Source of the DNA: Peribacillus sp. ACCC06369
Lineage (GTDB): Bacteria; Bacillota; Bacilli; Bacillales; DSM-1321
Assembly (NCBI RefSeq): GCF_030348945.1
Contig: NZ_JAUCEN010000002.1
Location: 186,001 to 250,000, forward strand
Length of the DNA: 64,000 bases
Direction: 5' to 3'
In this document: piece by piece, positions 1,807-19,277 of the stretch
How the letters are laid out: the number at the start of each line of letters is the position of its first letter
Numbering within the stretch: the first letter of the stretch is position 1
Notes under the pieces: model-generated
The model's input: only the letters and a program-made list of their open reading frames with translations
Databases searched by the model: none
What the model was told of the DNA's origin: nothing
Made by a program: the position numbers and the translations under genes

Positions 1807-2837
1807 GAAATAGGAAGCAGAATCGTAAAAGTAGTTCCCTTTTCGAGTTCACTTTCCACGGATATGGTCCCTTCATGCATCTCTATAATTCTTTTCACGA
1901 TGGATAGACCTAGACCGCTGCCGCTTTTTGAGCGTTCCCTTGCCAGGTCGGCTTTATAGAATCGCTCGAATATATGGAACTGGTCGTTTTCGGAAATGCC
2001 GATTCCATTGTCGGATATCGTTATGGATGCCCGGTCATCAATCTGTTGTAATCGAATCGTGATCTTTCCGCGATGGCGGGTGAACTTGATACTATTGTGT
2101 ATTAAATTCGTCCATACTTGGCTCATTAAGTCCTGGTCTGCAACTATTGGAACCTTTTCTAAGGATATATCCAATTCGAGTTCTTTTTCCAACCAAGCGG
2201 GTTCACATGCCAAAATAATGGTTCGTATTTGCTGATCGAGCCGGAAATCGGTCCTTTCAAAAGGATGATGGTCGGATTCAAGGGATGTAAGCTTTAGAAG
2301 GTTATCACTTAATTTAGATAATCTCCGGCTTTCTGTCTCAATTATATTAAGATAATGATTTCGTTCTTCGGTTGTCAGCTTATTAAATTGAAGAGCCTGG
2401 GCAAATCCTACAATGGAGGTAAGGGGCGACTGTATTTCGTGTGAGACGTTAGAGATGAATTCTTGCCGCATTTCTTCCATTTGCTTCAATTGCTTGGCCA
2501 TGTGATTGAAGTGGTTAATGATATCCGTCATTTCGTTTTTCTTGCCCGTTTTAAAATCCAATTGTACATTATAATCGCCATTTGCTATTTTCCTTAAGGC
2601 ATCTATGATCTCGAGGTAAATATTAACCCGTTTATTGTGATGGATAGCGCGGATAAGATAACCGATGGATATCATGATTGCGATGCTTGTCATGATAGTG
2701 GCCAGAAACCGAACATAATCGGTTAATCTTAAGGGCAATAGTTCAATGATATAATAACCGGCGGAAAAACATATGGAAATATATGCAATAAAAAACAGTG
2801 TGCCAAGCATTTGTTTGAAAAATCGATTGCTTCTCAT
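1803..2837 (-). CDS. Sensor histidine kinase
   Basis: Membrane kinase of 344 residues. Two hydrophobic segments lie at about 11-32 and 43-65 with almost no extracytoplasmic loop between them, followed by a HAMP-like linker (about 70-122). The phosphoacceptor is His133 in SNVSHEIQSPLTS. The catalytic domain shows the N box (NLIHNSIKF), the D box (DNGIGIS) and the G box (GSGLGLSIVKRI). Its ATG overlaps the TGA of the response-regulator gene by four bases (ATGA), so the two are translationally coupled. The tiny sensing loop is the intramembrane-sensing pattern common in Firmicute kinases that watch an associated ABC transporter, and such a transporter is encoded just upstream in the same operon. 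Confidence 0.93.
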   Translation of the reverse strand: MRSNRFFKQMLGTLFFIAYISICFSAGYYIIELLPLRLTDYVRFLATIMTSIAIMISIGYLIRAIHHNKRVNIYLEIIDALRKIANGDYNVQLDFKTGKKNEMTDIINHFNHMAKQLKQMEEMRQEFISNVSHEIQSPLTSIVGFAQALQFNKLTTEERNHYLNIIETESRRLSKLSDNLLKLTSLESDHHPFERTDFRLDQQIRTIILACEPAWLEKELELDISLEKVPIVADQDLMSQVWTNLIHNSIKFTRHRGKITIRLQQIDDRASITISDNGIGISENDQFHIFERFYKADLARERSKSGSGLGLSIVKRIIEMHEGTISVESELEKGTTFTILLPIS

Positions 2838-3508
2838 CTCGTTATCTCCAAACGGTAGCCCAATCCCCAGATCGTTTTAATCCGGAAAGGGAAATCCGAT
2901 TCAGGAAACCGTTCTCGCACTCTTTTAATATGAACATCGACAGTTCGTTCATCACCTTCATAATCATAGCCCCAAATGTCTTCGATAAGATTTTCCCTGG
3001 AAAAAGTTTTTCCAGGATAGCTTGCTAATTTAAACAACAATTCAAATTCTTTTAAGGGAATCGTAAATTCCTTTTCTTTGAATGAAATTTCATGTGTGTT
3101 GCGATTCATCTTTAATTCGCCGATATTTAATGTTTGTGAAATAGTAATTTTATAGCGTTTTAGTAATGCCTTTATTCTCAGAACCAATTCGATCGGTTCA
3201 AATGGCTTTACAAGATAATCATCTGCCCCAAGCCCGAAACCTTTTACTTTCTGTGTTGTTTCCCCTTTTGCAGTCAGCATTAAAATGGGGATATCACTAA
3301 ATTCCCGTAACTCTTTGCATAATTGCCATCCATCCATGTTGGGCATCATAATGTCGATGACTGCCAAATCGATTTTCACTTTCTCCATTACTTTCAATGC
3401 TTGCAGTCCATCTGAGGCTTCATATAGATCAAATCCTTCTTTTCTTAACAAGAGTTGTATAAGTTCACGAATATGTGCATCATCATCGACAATTAGTATT
3501 TTTGTCAT
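2834..3508 (-). CDS. OmpR/PhoB-family response regulator
   Basis: 224 residues. The N-terminal receiver domain has the acidic pair DDD (8-10), the phosphorylated Asp in IDIMMPNMDGW (about 52) and the conserved Lys in YLVKPFEP. The C-terminal winged helix ends with RVRERFPESDF and TIWGLGYRLE. It sits between the ABC transporter gene (23 bases after its stop) and the kinase gene (4-base overlap), all on minus, so it is the cognate regulator of that kinase. RBS is GGAAAGAAGACGG. The operon itself is the likely target, by analogy with other Bacillus transporter-linked systems. Confidence 0.93.
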   Translation of the reverse strand: MTKILIVDDDAHIRELIQLLLRKEGFDLYEASDGLQALKVMEKVKIDLAVIDIMMPNMDGWQLCKELREFSDIPILMLTAKGETTQKVKGFGLGADDYLVKPFEPIELVLRIKALLKRYKITISQTLNIGELKMNRNTHEISFKEKEFTIPLKEFELLFKLASYPGKTFSRENLIEDIWGYDYEGDERTVDVHIKRVRERFPESDFPFRIKTIWGLGYRLEITR

Positions 3509-3531
3509 CCGTCTTCTTTCCTTTCGGTAAA

Positions 3532-5277
3532 TTAGGCGAGTTCAAGTTTGTTTAACTGTTGTTCAGCGAATTCGCGATATAATGAGTGCGTTTTATATAG
3601 CTCCTTATGTGTTCCGCTGCCCGTTATTTTCCCTTTTTCCAGAAAGATGATTTGATCTGAACCAACAACGGTCGATAGGCGGTGAGCAATAACTATTGTT
3701 GTTCTGCCTTTCATTAATTCATTTAACGCCTGTTGAACAACTTTTTCTGATTTGCTGTCCAGGCTGGAGGTAGCTTCATCAAGCATCAGTATTTTTGGGT
3801 TTCTTAAAAATGCTCGGGCGATTGCAATTCTTTGTCTTTGACCGCCGGATAATTTCATGCCCCTTTCGCCAACCTCTGTATCATATCCGTTAGGAAGCTC
3901 AGAAATAAATTGATCTGCATACGCCATTTTAGCTACTTGGTTTAATTCCTCATCTGTTATATCCCGATCGATTCCATAACAGATATTATCTCGAATTGTG
4001 CCAGATACAATCGGACTTTCTTGTGAAACATACCCAATCTGGCTTCTCCATGAAAGCAGTGTGAAATCATTTATGGATTTCCCGCCTATGGAAATGGAGC
4101 CTTGCTGTGGTTTGTAGAAACGCTCGAATAATGAGAAAAGGGTTGTTTTGCCGCTGCCGCTTGGTCCGACAATTGCTGTGACCTTACCGGATTCAACGTT
4201 AAAGCTTATATCTTTAAGTACCTGTTCTCCATTATTGTAACTATAGTTCAGGTGATCCACGGTGATTGATTGACTTATATTCTGAACTGGCTGCTTCGCA
4301 TCTTCCTCCTCTACTGAATCCAAAATGGAAATGATGCGCTCTGTTGCACCCGTGGCTTTTTGAAATTGTGTAAAGAAACTGGCTAATTGAGCCATTGGCA
4401 TGATTATTTGGAAAAGATACATGATGAATGCAACTAGGGCTCCAGCAGTCAGGGCTCCTGAAGAAACGCGCATTCCCCCATAACCTAAAATCAGCACGAG
4501 TAATGCCATCATGACAAAACTCATTAGCGGCGCAATCAACGCTTGGATTTTTGCCTCTTTTAATCCGAATTGAAATAATTTATGGATTCCTTTTTTTCCA
4601 TTTTCATATTCTAGAGTTTCAGCATTTGAGGCTTTAACAAGACGGATTTCCGTTAGCACTTGCTGGAGGACTGAGGTGAAGCTTGCTGTCTCGTCCTGCA
4701 TCCCTTTTGATATTTCATGCATTTTTTTCCCTAGTGGCATTAATATCAAAACAGAGAGTGGAATTGCAGTGAACATCAATAATGTCATTTTCCAATCCAG
4801 TACGAATAACACGATCATGGAACCTACGATGGAAATGATTCCTGTAACGAAATTAGAGAGGTGCTCAGAGATTAATCCCTTCACTACTGTTGTATCATTT
4901 GTCATTCGACTGACTGTTTCGCCTGACGGATGTTCATCAAAATAACTCACGGGCAATACGAGTATTTTTTTCCATAGTTGATCGCGGATACCCGCCACTA
5001 CAGATTGACCGATCCGATTTAATAAATAGATGGAAAATCCACTGGCCAATGCTTGAACAATGATGGCAAGAACGAGAAGGGTGATCCGTTCAGTGCTTAG
5101 TGAGCTGATCGAAAAATCATTAATTAAATTTTTTGTGAATAAAGGGACTAATAAACCCACACCCGTTGTACCTAGGCTTAATGCCAATGCAATCCCTATC
5201 ATTAGTTTAGAAGGCTTCGTTTGTTGAACTAACCGAATGAACTGGCGCCATCCCTTTTGATTTTTTGCTTCTGACAT
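3532..5277 (-). CDS. Multidrug-type ABC exporter half-transporter (BmrA/MsbA-like)
   Basis: Fused transmembrane and ATPase half-transporter of 581 residues that would work as a homodimer in the membrane. The N-terminal half holds the six-helix exporter domain. The C-terminal half holds Walker [10 protein letters not shown], the signature [15 protein letters not shown], Walker [13 protein letters not shown] and the switch IAHRLS. I chose ATG 5277 (MSEAKNQKG) because AAAGGA lies 11 bases upstream of it; longer frames reach 5322 but have no usable RBS. It is the first gene of a minus-strand operon with a response regulator and a kinase. Export substrate is unknown. BmrA of B. subtilis is the closest type I can name. 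Confidence 0.9.
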
Positions 5278-15938: not shown

Positions 15939-17204
15939 ATGATGGAATTACAGCAGAGGGCAATCTTGGTTGGCGTCAATCTCAACGGTCAAAAGGATTT
16001 TGAGTATTCAATGGAGGAATTGGCCAATTTAACGGAAGCGTGTGAGGTAGAGGTTGCAGGGACCATCACACAAAATTTGCATCGGGTGAACTCATCACAT
16101 TTTATCGGTACCGGGAAGATTGAGGAAGTAAAAAATCTCGTTGAGTATAAAGAAGCTAATGTCGTCATTTTTAATGATCAGCTCTCCCCTTCGCAACTTC
16201 GGAATCTGGAGAGGGACATGGATTGCAAGGTGATCGATCGGACAATCTTGATTCTGGACATCTTCGCGCATCGGGCGAAAACGAAGGAAGCGCAGCTTCA
16301 GGTGGAAGTGGCGAAGCTTCAGTATATGCTCCCGCGTCTCGTTGGTTTAAGGGAGTCATTAGGGCGTCAAAGTGGTGGAGTCGGTACAAACAAAGGGGCA
16401 GGTGAAAAGCAGTTAGAGCTTGACCGCAGGAGAATCGAGGAAAATATAAGTGTTTTGAATAAAGAACTGGAAGACCTTGTTGCACACCGGCAAACGCAGA
16501 GGAAACAGCGAAAAAAGAATAGCATCCCTGTCGTATCCTTAGTCGGTTATACCAATGCAGGGAAATCTTCGATCATGAATGCTCTGATTGGGATGTACCA
16601 TCCAACAGCCGAAAAGCAGGTATTGGAAAAGGATATGCTTTTCGCTACACTTGAGACATCCATACGAAACATACCGCTGCCGGATAACAAGGAATTCTTA
16701 TTGACGGATACGGTGGGCTTTGTGTCTAAATTGCCCCATCATCTTGTGAAAGCATTCCGATCCACCTTAGAAGAAGTGGTGGAAGCGGATTTGTTGATCC
16801 ATGTTGTCGATTTTTCCAATCCTAATCATGAACAGCAAATAGAGATAACTGATAAGACGTTAAATGAGATAGGCATTAAAGGGATTCCAACGATTTTTGC
16901 CTATAATAAAGCGGACCTTACCGATTTGGAAATCCCTCAGGTGAATCGTGGCTCTGTATATATGTCAGCGAAAAACAAAGTTGGCATCGAGGAATTGATC
17001 AATCAAATTCGCAAGCATATTTTTGTCGACTATACTCACTGTGAAATGCTGATTCCATTTGATCAAGGACAGCTGGTTTCCTATTTCAATGAAAATGGTC
17101 ATATTACGGAAACTGAATATGAGGCAAACGGATATCGAATTAAGCTTGAGTGCAGGAAAACAGATTATGAGAAATATAATCGGTACGTTATTCATCAAGA
17201 ATGA
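15939..17204 (+). CDS. hflX: Ribosome-associated GTPase HflX
   Basis: 421 residues. The N-terminal HflX domain has the pattern VAGTITQNLHRVNSSHFIGTGKIEE and the glycine-rich linker GRQSGGVGTNKGAGEKQLELDRR. The GTPase domain follows, with G1 GYTNAGKSS, G3 DTVGF and G4 NKAD. HflX is known as a 50S-binding GTPase that splits stalled 70S ribosomes under heat or antibiotic stress. AAAGGA lies six bases before the ATG, and a second ATG follows directly, so the protein may be one residue shorter. The gene stands alone. The cluster of DnaA-box-like 9-mers begins eight bases after its stop. Confidence 0.95.
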   Translation: MMELQQRAILVGVNLNGQKDFEYSMEELANLTEACEVEVAGTITQNLHRVNSSHFIGTGKIEEVKNLVEYKEANVVIFNDQLSPSQLRNLERDMDCKVIDRTILILDIFAHRAKTKEAQLQVEVAKLQYMLPRLVGLRESLGRQSGGVGTNKGAGEKQLELDRRRIEENISVLNKELEDLVAHRQTQRKQRKKNSIPVVSLVGYTNAGKSSIMNALIGMYHPTAEKQVLEKDMLFATLETSIRNIPLPDNKEFLLTDTVGFVSKLPHHLVKAFRSTLEEVVEADLLIHVVDFSNPNHEQQIEITDKTLNEIGIKGIPTIFAYNKADLTDLEIPQVNRGSVYMSAKNKVGIEELINQIRKHIFVDYTHCEMLIPFDQGQLVSYFNENGHITETEYEANGYRIKLECRKTDYEKYNRYVIHQE

Positions 17205-17211
17205 GATTGGT

Positions 17212-17416
17212 TGTTGATAAGTTGTTAACAGCATGTTGATAAGTGGAAAAATAAATTGGTAAATGTGGATAACTTTTGTATATGTGCTTCTGTTCTGCGA
17301 AAACAAAGAGAATAAAGCAATATGTTTTGTGTATAAGTTGTGGATAAAAGTAAAAGTCCTAGGGAATCTTGAATAAAGTTTCTGGGCTTTTTTTTATGTG
17401 GACAAAGTGTTGATAA
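17212..17416 (+). promoter_or_regulatory. Cluster of seven co-oriented DnaA-box-like 9-mers
   Basis: The DnaA box written TGTGGATAA occurs perfectly at 17264-17272 and 17339-17347. One-mismatch copies: TGTTGATAA at 17212-17220, 17234-17242 and 17408-17416; TGTGTATAA at 17328-17336; TGTGGACAA at 17397-17405. All seven lie on the same strand within 205 bases of otherwise non-coding AT-rich DNA. In B. subtilis, DnaA-box clusters outside oriC are known to bind DnaA and help control initiation. Nothing else here (no dnaA, dnaN or rpmH) suggests oriC itself. Confidence 0.7.
17351..17396 (+). terminator. Probable hflX terminator
   Basis: AAAGTCC(T)AG pairs with CTGGGCTTT (one bulge, one wobble) over a loop of about 19 bases, followed by eight T. 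It lies inside the DnaA-box cluster. Confidence 0.6.
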
Positions 17417-17673
17417 GTAGATTTTCGGAACAAATCATCAAAGAATATCATTAGGTATGATGAATAATAAGTTTGAATGTAGAAAAATGACGATGTTTAT
17501 CATTTATTGTTAGGAAATATAACATGGATATTACATATTGCATATCTTACAGCTGGCAATACTTTACACTTTGTATAATGTAACTTACTTTTCAACATTA
17601 TAAAATAAAGAATACTCATTTCTAAGATAATCATCAGGATTTGAGTTTTTAAGATTAGTAGGGGGGGCTTTTT

Positions 17674-17769
17674 ATGGCCGAAGGAAGCGGGGACCGAGGC
17701 ATGGCCAGTGAGAGAATGATAGAAAATAATATACGGAACGAGAGAATTCTGGCAAGGAAATCGCCATGA
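17674..17769 (+). CDS. Possible 31-residue peptide in the hflX-preT gap
   Basis: ATG 17674 is preceded by a strong G-rich RBS (TAGGGGGGGC) at normal distance. It opens 31 codons (MAEGSGDRGMASERMIENN...) to TGA 17767. The composition is charged and soluble, with no recognised family. Support is only the RBS and the frame. Apart from this, 17417-17912 shows nothing beyond the likely promoter of the pyrimidine operon. Confidence 0.25.
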   Translation: MAEGSGDRGMASERMIENNIRNERILARKSP

Positions 17770-17912
17770 CTGTCTGTTGAATAAATTGGTGAAAGCCATG
17801 TGGCAATTTTTTCAATCCTTTAAATGTGTGAGAATTGTATTTTTAGAGTAATGGATGCAAATCCTCCCTTTTTATTTTTCAAAAAATAAATTTTTGGAAG
17901 GAGAAATAGTGG

Positions 17913-19277
17913 ATGAGTATGACTAGCCCGTTAAAAGGTGGCCTAGAGATTAACTTTCAGGAAGCGGAGAGGGGTTTGTCCCCTAGGGAAGCTTTGGAAG
18001 AATCGAATCGATGTTTATACTGCTATGACGCCCCATGTATCCAAGCCTGTCCGACAGGGATAGATATTCCAAGTTTTATTAAGAAGATAGCTTCAGGTAA
18101 TTTTAAAGGTTCAGCCAAGACGATCATGACGGCCAATCCTGTCGGTGCCAGCTGCGCGCGGGTATGTCCGACAGAAGAGTTATGTGAGGGGGCATGTGTC
18201 CTGAACCATTCTACAAAGCCAATCATGATTGGCGATCTCCAGCGTTATTCCACAGATTGGGCCATCCAAAATAAACAAGCCCTGTTCAAGGCCGGGAAGA
18301 AGAATGGCAAAAAAGTTGCCATTGTAGGAAGCGGTCCAGCGGGCTTATCTGCAGCAAGGGAATTAGCCTTGCTTGGCTACAGTGTAACCATTTTCGAAGC
18401 TGAAAAAAATCCAGGCGGTTTAAATACTTACGGAATTGTGTCTTTCCGTTTGCCTCAGAGCATTTCTTATTGGGAAGTCGAACAAGTGAAGAGTTTGGAT
18501 GTTGAAATTAAAACGAGTACACGGGTCGGGGTTGATGTTTCCGTAAATCAGCTGACAGCCGACTATGATGCGGTCATTTTAGCGATTGGCATGTCCGATG
18601 TTCCGAAGCTTGGAATTGAAGGAGAAGATTTGGATGGAGTTTATGATGCAATCGAGTTCGTCAAAGCAACGAAAACGGAGGCCATCACTAATAAATTCAT
18701 TGGGAAGAAGATGGCGGTAATAGGGGCTGGAAACACGGCGATCGATGCAGCGACCTGCTCTGTCCGACTGGGTGCCGAACAAGTGAGCATTATTTATCGT
18801 CGTACCCAAAAGGAAATGACAGCTTATGATTTTGAATATGAGTTTGCCAAACAAGAGGGTGTCGGGTTTCACTGGCTGACTAACCCCTCCAGGATCCTAT
18901 CGGATGAAAGCGGTCAGGTAACGGGCATCGAGTGTGTGAAAATGGTTCTTAGCGAGGCAGGGGATGATGGCCGCCGCCGTCCAGTCCCGATTTCGGGATC
19001 AGAGTTCGTCATACCGGTTGATGGAGTCATTCGTGCTATAGGCCAATCCAGGTATATAGGATTGATTGAACAGTTTGGCATACAACATGAAGATGGCGTC
19101 GTTACATTGGAGGGAGATTCCTACAGAACATCTAATGAAAAAGTTTTTGCGTGCGGGGACGTGATTTTTGGAAAAGGCCAAGGTGAAGCAATGGTTGTTT
19201 CAGCTGCCCAGCAAGGGAAGAAGACAGCCTATGAAATTGACTCGATTTTAATGAACGAAGCGGTGGATATTGCTTAA
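17913..19277 (+). CDS. preT: NAD-dependent dihydropyrimidine dehydrogenase, PreT subunit
   Basis: 454 residues, GltD-like. The N-terminal cysteine-rich Fe-S region (CLYCYDAPCIQACPTG; CARVCPTEELCEGAC) is followed by an FAD-binding GSGPAGLSAARELA motif and an NAD-binding GAGNTAIDAATCSVRLG motif. It ends with the FAD motif ACGDVIFGKG. With PreA it forms the complex that reduces uracil and thymine to their 5,6-dihydro forms, the first step of reductive pyrimidine breakdown. RBS GGAAGGAG is nine bases before ATG. It is the first gene of a tight operon preT-preA-hydA-NCS1 permease-small protein. A purely glutamate-synthase-like role is excluded by the context. Confidence 0.9.
   Translation: MSMTSPLKGGLEINFQEAERGLSPREALEESNRCLYCYDAPCIQACPTGIDIPSFIKKIASGNFKGSAKTIMTANPVGASCARVCPTEELCEGACVLNHSTKPIMIGDLQRYSTDWAIQNKQALFKAGKKNGKKVAIVGSGPAGLSAARELALLGYSVTIFEAEKNPGGLNTYGIVSFRLPQSISYWEVEQVKSLDVEIKTSTRVGVDVSVNQLTADYDAVILAIGMSDVPKLGIEGEDLDGVYDAIEFVKATKTEAITNKFIGKKMAVIGAGNTAIDAATCSVRLGAEQVSIIYRRTQKEMTAYDFEYEFAKQEGVGFHWLTNPSRILSDESGQVTGIECVKMVLSEAGDDGRRRPVPISGSEFVIPVDGVIRAIGQSRYIGLIEQFGIQHEDGVVTLEGDSYRTSNEKVFACGDVIFGKGQGEAMVVSAAQQGKKTAYEIDSILMNEAVDIA

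Follow-up and report, generated by a model that had tools for sequence, protein, structure and literature searches.

Clusters of DnaA boxes near the replication origin (oriC) of Bacillus subtilis have reportedly been described by Okumura et al. (2012). Here we describe a cluster behind hflX, the gene for the GTPase HflX, in a 64,000-nucleotide (nt) stretch of the soil bacterium Peribacillus sp. ACCC06369 (contig NZ_JAUCEN010000002.1, positions 186,001 to 250,000), hereafter the window. B. subtilis has eight high-affinity DnaA regions, six of them outside oriC (PMC4447404). Its clusters have been described as sequestering DnaA (PMC11019786), and removal of all six leads to early initiation, which is partly relieved when one is restored (PMC5295017, PMC13220808). 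We propose that the seven boxes behind hflX form a predicted DnaA-binding cluster outside oriC that likely acts as an origin-near DnaA sink, and that the cluster is probably a docking or storage site helping to time DNA replication.

Boxes were identified with TGTGGATAA as the query, allowing at most one mismatch, and were compared with the DnaA consensus TTATNCACA (as in PMC4447404). A preliminary description of this DNA had listed seven DnaA-box-like 9-mers, two exact and five with one mismatch, all in one orientation at 17212-17416 after hflX. Our recount was identical and put all seven on the + strand, with box 1 starting at the 8th base past the hflX stop codon and the boxes following one another at start-to-start distances of 22, 30, 64, 11, 58 and 11 base pairs (bp). 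The cluster lies wholly inside the 708-bp gap that separates hflX from a preT-like gene starting at 17913. No box with up to one mismatch was found on the - strand of 17205-17912, and allowing two mismatches added a single one, at 17589.

The boxes are not randomly distributed. A null sample of 400 kb of the same chromosome, taken as 20 stretches (three shifted by hand, two of those away from known box places), held 146 one-mismatch boxes and a maximum of four per 205 bp, compared with seven in the cluster. The rest of the window reached at most two per 205 bp, and 300 anagrams of the box reached at most five in the window and 80 kb more. Based on the 1961 one-mismatch boxes in the genome (1384 for the reversed pattern), the whole-genome expectation of equal clusters is 3e-7 under a Poisson model, or 0.02 with a five-fold higher local rate. 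Exact boxes are likewise more numerous than their reversed pattern (93 vs 51). Pairs of TGTKNAYAA in the same direction numbered 17 vs 4 for the control with 0-30 nt between them (four here and five at C2:311765, C2 being the chromosome contig), and 20 vs 2 with 31-60 nt between them (four here); pairs in opposite directions showed no excess (4 places vs 4, and 8 vs 7, each counted on both strands). The preliminary description had proposed ranking this density across the complete genome. Performed on 16 candidate stretches, picked via exact boxes and tandem pairs, and on the window, a narrower scope than the whole genome, the ranking placed seven boxes per 205 bp at three places only: the hflX cluster, the dnaA-upstream half of oriC, and C2:768687.

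It had earlier been doubted that the repeats were a chance product of AT-rich DNA, and equally dense random windows had been named as one outcome that would refute the claim; these have been sampled in part, and the claim stands. The G+C content of the intergenic DNA is low (31.6% vs 40.8% for the whole window), as a chance origin might have it, but the null samples, the anagram controls and the box-specific conservation described below all speak against chance, which we regard as extremely improbable. The further argument from orientation fared less well. All seven boxes are indeed co-oriented, but we give this little weight because 60 of the 93 exact boxes in the genome already point away from the origin (33/46 and 27/47 on the two half chromosomes).

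The second line of evidence is conservation. A scan of genome contigs for hflX yielded 80 loci, the closest named HflX loci being those of Bacillus sp. ISL-34 (97%) and P. frigoritolerans (96%). On these matches the host most probably belongs to the simplex/frigoritolerans group of Peribacillus. Seven boxes follow hflX at 12 of 12 Peribacillus-group loci (L001-L011, L023), although at L009 the cluster is rearranged over ~240 bp, with one box reversed and a maximum of five per 205 bp. At the remaining 68 loci, the first 900 nt past hflX have no more than two boxes in any 205 bp; at five of these loci the sequence extends less than 200 nt beyond the gene. In a genus set of 36 genomes, 27 had HflX at E 1e-150 or better, and a cluster or boxes were found behind hflX in 24 of the 27, own genome included. 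A lack of conservation in relatives had been named earlier as another refuting outcome; the test of conservation, fuller than that of density, did not refute the claim. The cluster follows hflX in 21/21 close genus genomes, own included (HflX 90-100% identity), with nearly fixed spacing and a single orientation in 20; in the exception, G004, the layout has been rearranged and one box faces the other way. The 12 named loci and the 21 genomes overlap and are largely of the same species, so they are not independent sets. Six genus genomes have HflX of 72-76% identity, and three of them carry 3-5 tandem boxes (five at L145, three each at L144 and L146, behind HflX of 72-74% identity and with no preT downstream). 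The cluster goes with hflX, not with the downstream genes.

Across the 21 close genomes, mean column identity is 0.974 in the boxes vs 0.797 between them, and 41/63 columns are invariant in the boxes vs 10/149 between. When the box mask was shifted circularly, the observed difference of 0.177 was not reached at any of 211 offsets, the best giving 0.158. Variation in box 4 is confined to position 5, where both TGTGNATAA and the DnaA consensus TTATNCACA have N. Judged by this alignment, the box letters are kept by selection. In G014, an insertion at the hflX terminator (L150, ~2435-3775) that appears by eye to carry transposase-like frames parts boxes 1-5 from boxes 6-7, which sit ~1.3 kb on, and all seven boxes are kept. 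The HflX tree supports each of three genus groups but does not order them among themselves or against Paenibacillus HflX, and so fits one gain followed by loss, two gains or gene transfer alike. After one and the same gene, some of these genomes keep the cluster, some lack it and some have rebuilt it, a natural series in which DnaA titration could be compared in non-model species.

The third line of evidence is the chromosomal setting. The cluster occupies C2:203212-203416 of the 5,466,422-bp chromosome contig, ~203 kb from dnaA (C2:1), or 3.7% of the chromosome; it is outside oriC and on its side. We take the frame at C2:1-1350 to be dnaA, with dnaN after it, from the gene order and the DnaA-trio run; its likeness is 99% to the frames of five relatives and 90% to that of G003. 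In seven of nine genomes examined, those whose contig begins with dnaA, the hflX-dnaA distance is 187-257 kb. The exact boxes of the cluster are identical to boxes of the genome's own oriC, and exact boxes are modestly enriched near oriC after merging neighbours (16/72 places within 330 kb, p 0.011; 29/72 within 800 kb, p 0.030). Judged by neighbour genes, box groups of this genome match five of the six non-oriC high-affinity DnaA regions of B. subtilis (Table 1), in a comparison that covered these five; the sixth is ywcI/vpr. The ywlC/ywlB, yqeG/sda and yydA/yyzF regions were matched through ywlC, yqeG and yydA, and ydiF, ywlC and yydA were presumed to be the ABC-F, TIGR00057 and RlmH genes. 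The seven strictly kept boxes, together with the groups at five shared places, suggest that selection favours both the gain and the upkeep of such sites, an argument for an effect on fitness.

Table 1. Features of the hflX locus, box groups at places shared with B. subtilis, and example copies of a dispersed box module. Positions are those of the window unless a contig is named; conservation is the mean over alignment columns in 21 genomes, own included.
Feature	Position	Strand	Remarks
hflX, GTPase HflX	15939..17204	+	TIGR03156 (NCBIfam), 457.9 bits, cut-off 216.75
DnaA box 1, TGTTGATAA	17212..17220	+	conservation 0.96
DnaA box 2, TGTTGATAA	17234..17242	+	conservation 0.98
DnaA box 3, TGTGGATAA, exact	17264..17272	+	conservation 0.98
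DnaA box 4, TGTGTATAA	17328..17336	+	8/9 columns invariant, position 5 variable; forms a pair with box 5, their starts 11 bp apart
DnaA box 5, TGTGGATAA, exact	17339..17347	+	conservation 0.99
Hairpin resembling a terminator, with T run; lies between boxes 5 and 6	17352..17395	+	fold of 17345-17400: -12.2 kcal/mol, z -2.27
DnaA box 6, TGTGGACAA	17397..17405	+	conservation 0.98; forms a pair with box 7, their starts 11 bp apart
DnaA box 7, TGTTGATAA	17408..17416	+	conservation 0.97
preT-like oxidoreductase gene, next downstream	17913..19277	+	outside the element, as L144-L146 lack preT next to the cluster
Box group beside TsaD (gcp)/ABC-F	C2:311765	one orientation	6 per 205 bp; matches gcp/ydiF
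Box group beside MnmE/Jag			3 per 205 bp; matches trmE/jag
Box group beside TIGR00057 (ywlC-like)/SpoIIR			5 per 205 bp; matches ywlC/ywlB
Box group beside YqeG			4 per 205 bp; matches yqeG/sda
Box group beside RlmH/HtrA-like protease			5 per 205 bp; matches yydA/yyzF
Module copy	G003:C1:258706-258756		among L159-L197
Module copy	G002:C14:29552-29602		among L159-L197

The identification as a DnaA-box cluster outside oriC of the B. subtilis kind, already proposed in the preliminary description, is backed by the density, by selection on the boxes, by presence across the genus and by box groups at loci known to be DnaA-bound. We infer DnaA binding, cooperativity and a sink role. At E. coli oriC, cooperative loading of DnaA is supported by sites that face the same way and are separated by 2 bp (PMC4451416), and box pairs 4-5 and 6-7 have gaps of this size. 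Being near the origin, the cluster would be duplicated soon after initiation, and the duplicated cluster would then take up DnaA. As one of several sinks it would lower the amount of unbound DnaA and keep initiation from coming too early, an effect that has been reported for clusters of B. subtilis. Several observations weigh against this proposal. Three of the seven boxes are TGTTGATAA, which is off the consensus TTATNCACA. No cluster was found behind hflX at L117-L119, where HflX is of ~76% identity, and in 9/36 genus genomes HflX had no match at E 1e-150, so that these loci are outside the box count. In addition, ~10-fold more DnaA has been reported not to cause over-initiation (PMC13220808), so the sink role may be minor.

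DnaA might also bind the cluster for the sake of transcription, blocking or tuning either read-through at the terminator of hflX or the preT-preA-hydantoinase promoter and thereby coupling these genes to replication status. In B. subtilis, DnaA serves as a transcription factor at some of its sites (PMC4447404), and the boxes stand on either side of the hairpin at 17352..17395, presumably the terminator of hflX, and ~500 nt ahead of preT. Two box triples elsewhere, at C2:617167 and C2:681058, also flank DNA that is hairpin-like by eye. Moreover, a TATAAT-bearing stretch near 17574 is alike by eye in the window and L150, making a preT promoter downstream of the cluster possible. The hairpin DNA is, however, more variable than the boxes, and since boxes follow hflX without preT in L144-L146, control of preT is improbable as the main role. 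We thus hold a transcriptional function to be unlikely, and we give slightly less credence still to a site of the DARS or datA type, at which an ordered assembly would alter the nucleotide bound to DnaA instead of merely storing the protein. Near-fixed spacing and a single orientation in 20 of 21 genomes point to an ordered complex, beyond the need of a mere sink, and in B. subtilis the gcp/ydiF and sda regions show a preference for ATP-DnaA (PMC4447404). Against this, B. subtilis is described as lacking datA, DARS loci and IHF (PMC13220808), and no partner-protein site is known in the cluster, for which no systematic search was made.

That the boxes are sites of another protein with a DnaA-box-like motif is very improbable. 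The three TGTTGATAA copies would suit such a protein, but the exact boxes are the same as the own oriC boxes, box 4 varies freely at the N position of DnaA, and the other box groups lie at loci known to be DnaA-bound. A second or cryptic replication origin is more improbable again. AT-rich DNA adjoins the tandem boxes, as it would in an origin. A DnaA-trio run was not found in 17001-17900, where a single four-triplet match overlaps box 5; oriC, in contrast, has six clean trios (TAGTAGTAATAGTAGTAG) beside its box. The DNA directly past box 5 varies among relatives, and the four-triplet match is not kept. A second origin is thus unlikely because the oriC-type trio run is absent at hflX, and the suggestion in the preliminary description that such clusters load DnaA is disfavoured where loading is meant in the origin sense. 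We return to the DnaA sink as the favoured interpretation of the seven-box cluster.

A different layout occurs behind hflX in two distant members of the genus, G002 and G003, where the boxes are one copy of a dispersed module. The module consists of the palindrome GTCACAGTGAC, 9 nt, TGTGGATAA, 2 nt, TGTGNATAA, 3 nt and TGTGNATAA, so that its boxes are phased at 11 and 12 bp. At up to two mismatches there are 18 copies in G002 and 17 in G003, compared with 0 for a control pattern. At the same threshold the module was not found in the other 34 of the 36 genus genomes scanned, the own genome, G000, among them. Nor was it found in seven further family genomes (43 in all, including the 36), in 398 genomes of the class (two shared with the family set), or in viral contigs, for which a shorter pattern and exact matches only were used. 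The hflX cluster of the window is not in the module family because the window is without GTCACAGTGAC at up to one mismatch and G000 is without the module. All 17 copies in G003 lie within 657 kb of dnaA, or 27% of the chromosome (8 places when merged at 15 kb; P ~3e-5 under uniform placement), and 15/17 point away from the origin. In 12/33 copies, according to a crude open reading frame finder, the preceding gene takes its stop codon from the palindrome (TGA), so that different proteins have one common end, -SQ. The 33 copies comprise 31/35 at two mismatches and two seen only at three, matching places of both genomes being counted apart.

A Y1 transposase gene (PF01797) lies between module copies at a secA2-like locus and is only a lead towards a REP-like spread of the module. 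At L161:1536-1577 (G003:C1:461035-461076), the same palindrome precedes four perfect boxes with an exact 11-bp period, which run on the other strand from the frames around them. In a literature search of partial coverage, DnaA boxes with interspersed repeats and Bacillus gave no match, and among the matches listed for GTCACAGTGAC there was only human-cell or oligonucleotide work; nothing known matched the module in this limited search. If DnaA binds it, the module would be an unusual multi-copy form. We tentatively suggest, as a possibility that we ourselves doubt, that ordered DnaA assemblies recurrently dock, close to the origin, in the DNA that follows hflX, for which Peribacillus would have at least two layouts, the seven-box array and, in the two distant members, a 52-bp module in which a palindrome for a dimeric partner is followed by 9 nt and three helically phased boxes. 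The module would then be a spreading multi-copy regulator of DnaA, acting with a partner protein, and not a plain sink.

The sole listed open reading frame of at least 60 amino acids (aa) touching the cluster is a 113-aa antisense frame at 16965-17306, across boxes 1-3, which is without support as a gene and is regarded as a putative frame only. A simple promoter and terminator scan did not list the hairpin between boxes 5 and 6, which was detected by RNA folding, and an Rfam search of 16900-18200 gave a single match, far under its gathering score. The name PreT for the product of the downstream gene is inferred from the place of the gene ahead of preA (NF006183). A 31-codon frame at 17674-17770, after a GGGGGGG run that resembles a ribosome site and ~140 bp ahead of preT, has similar first residues in several relatives but a variable length; it may possibly be a leader peptide or a remnant.

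Other groups of boxes were noted elsewhere on the chromosome. At C2:768687-768868 (L085:2688-2869), seven boxes of mixed orientation lie between a gene for an AMP-binding enzyme and an epimerase/recX pair; this cluster is not among the B. subtilis regions seen, and the G003 stretch L166 looks similar. Triples composed of TGTGCATAA, 2 nt, TGTGGATAA, DNA that is hairpin-like by eye, and TGTGCATAA occur in G000 at C2:617167-617236 and C2:681058-681130, and this pattern is present in 11/36 genus genomes, own included. Three exact boxes 360 bp apart in G000 (C2:2558796, 2559156 and 2559516) lie inside a long open frame (L086) and are probably a coding repeat, not a DnaA site.

Literature searches of partial coverage gave no match for DnaA boxes with Peribacillus and, for DnaA boxes with hflX, one paper, on a Mycoplasma integration plasmid. 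Among described systems, the hflX cluster shares with E. coli datA, DARS1 and DARS2 the character of non-coding DnaA-box DNA away from oriC, but datA acts with IHF on the nucleotide state of DnaA (PMC5295017), and no such partner is known for the hflX cluster. With the left and right DnaA arrays of E. coli oriC it has in common same-direction sites at exact 2-bp gaps (PMC4451416), found here in pairs 4-5 and 6-7, whereas the hflX locus has pairs only, with neither four-site arrays nor a trio run. The oriC-proximal clusters of B. subtilis are alike in having several near-consensus boxes in a short intergenic stretch outside oriC, and gcp/ydiF offers the closest likeness, its counterpart at C2:311765 having six boxes in one orientation. 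The hflX cluster differs from them in that it was found in one genus only, in this sample, and in its two 2-bp-gap pairs, one on each side of the terminator. It is a known kind of site at a new place, behind hflX, and adds to the set shared with B. subtilis.
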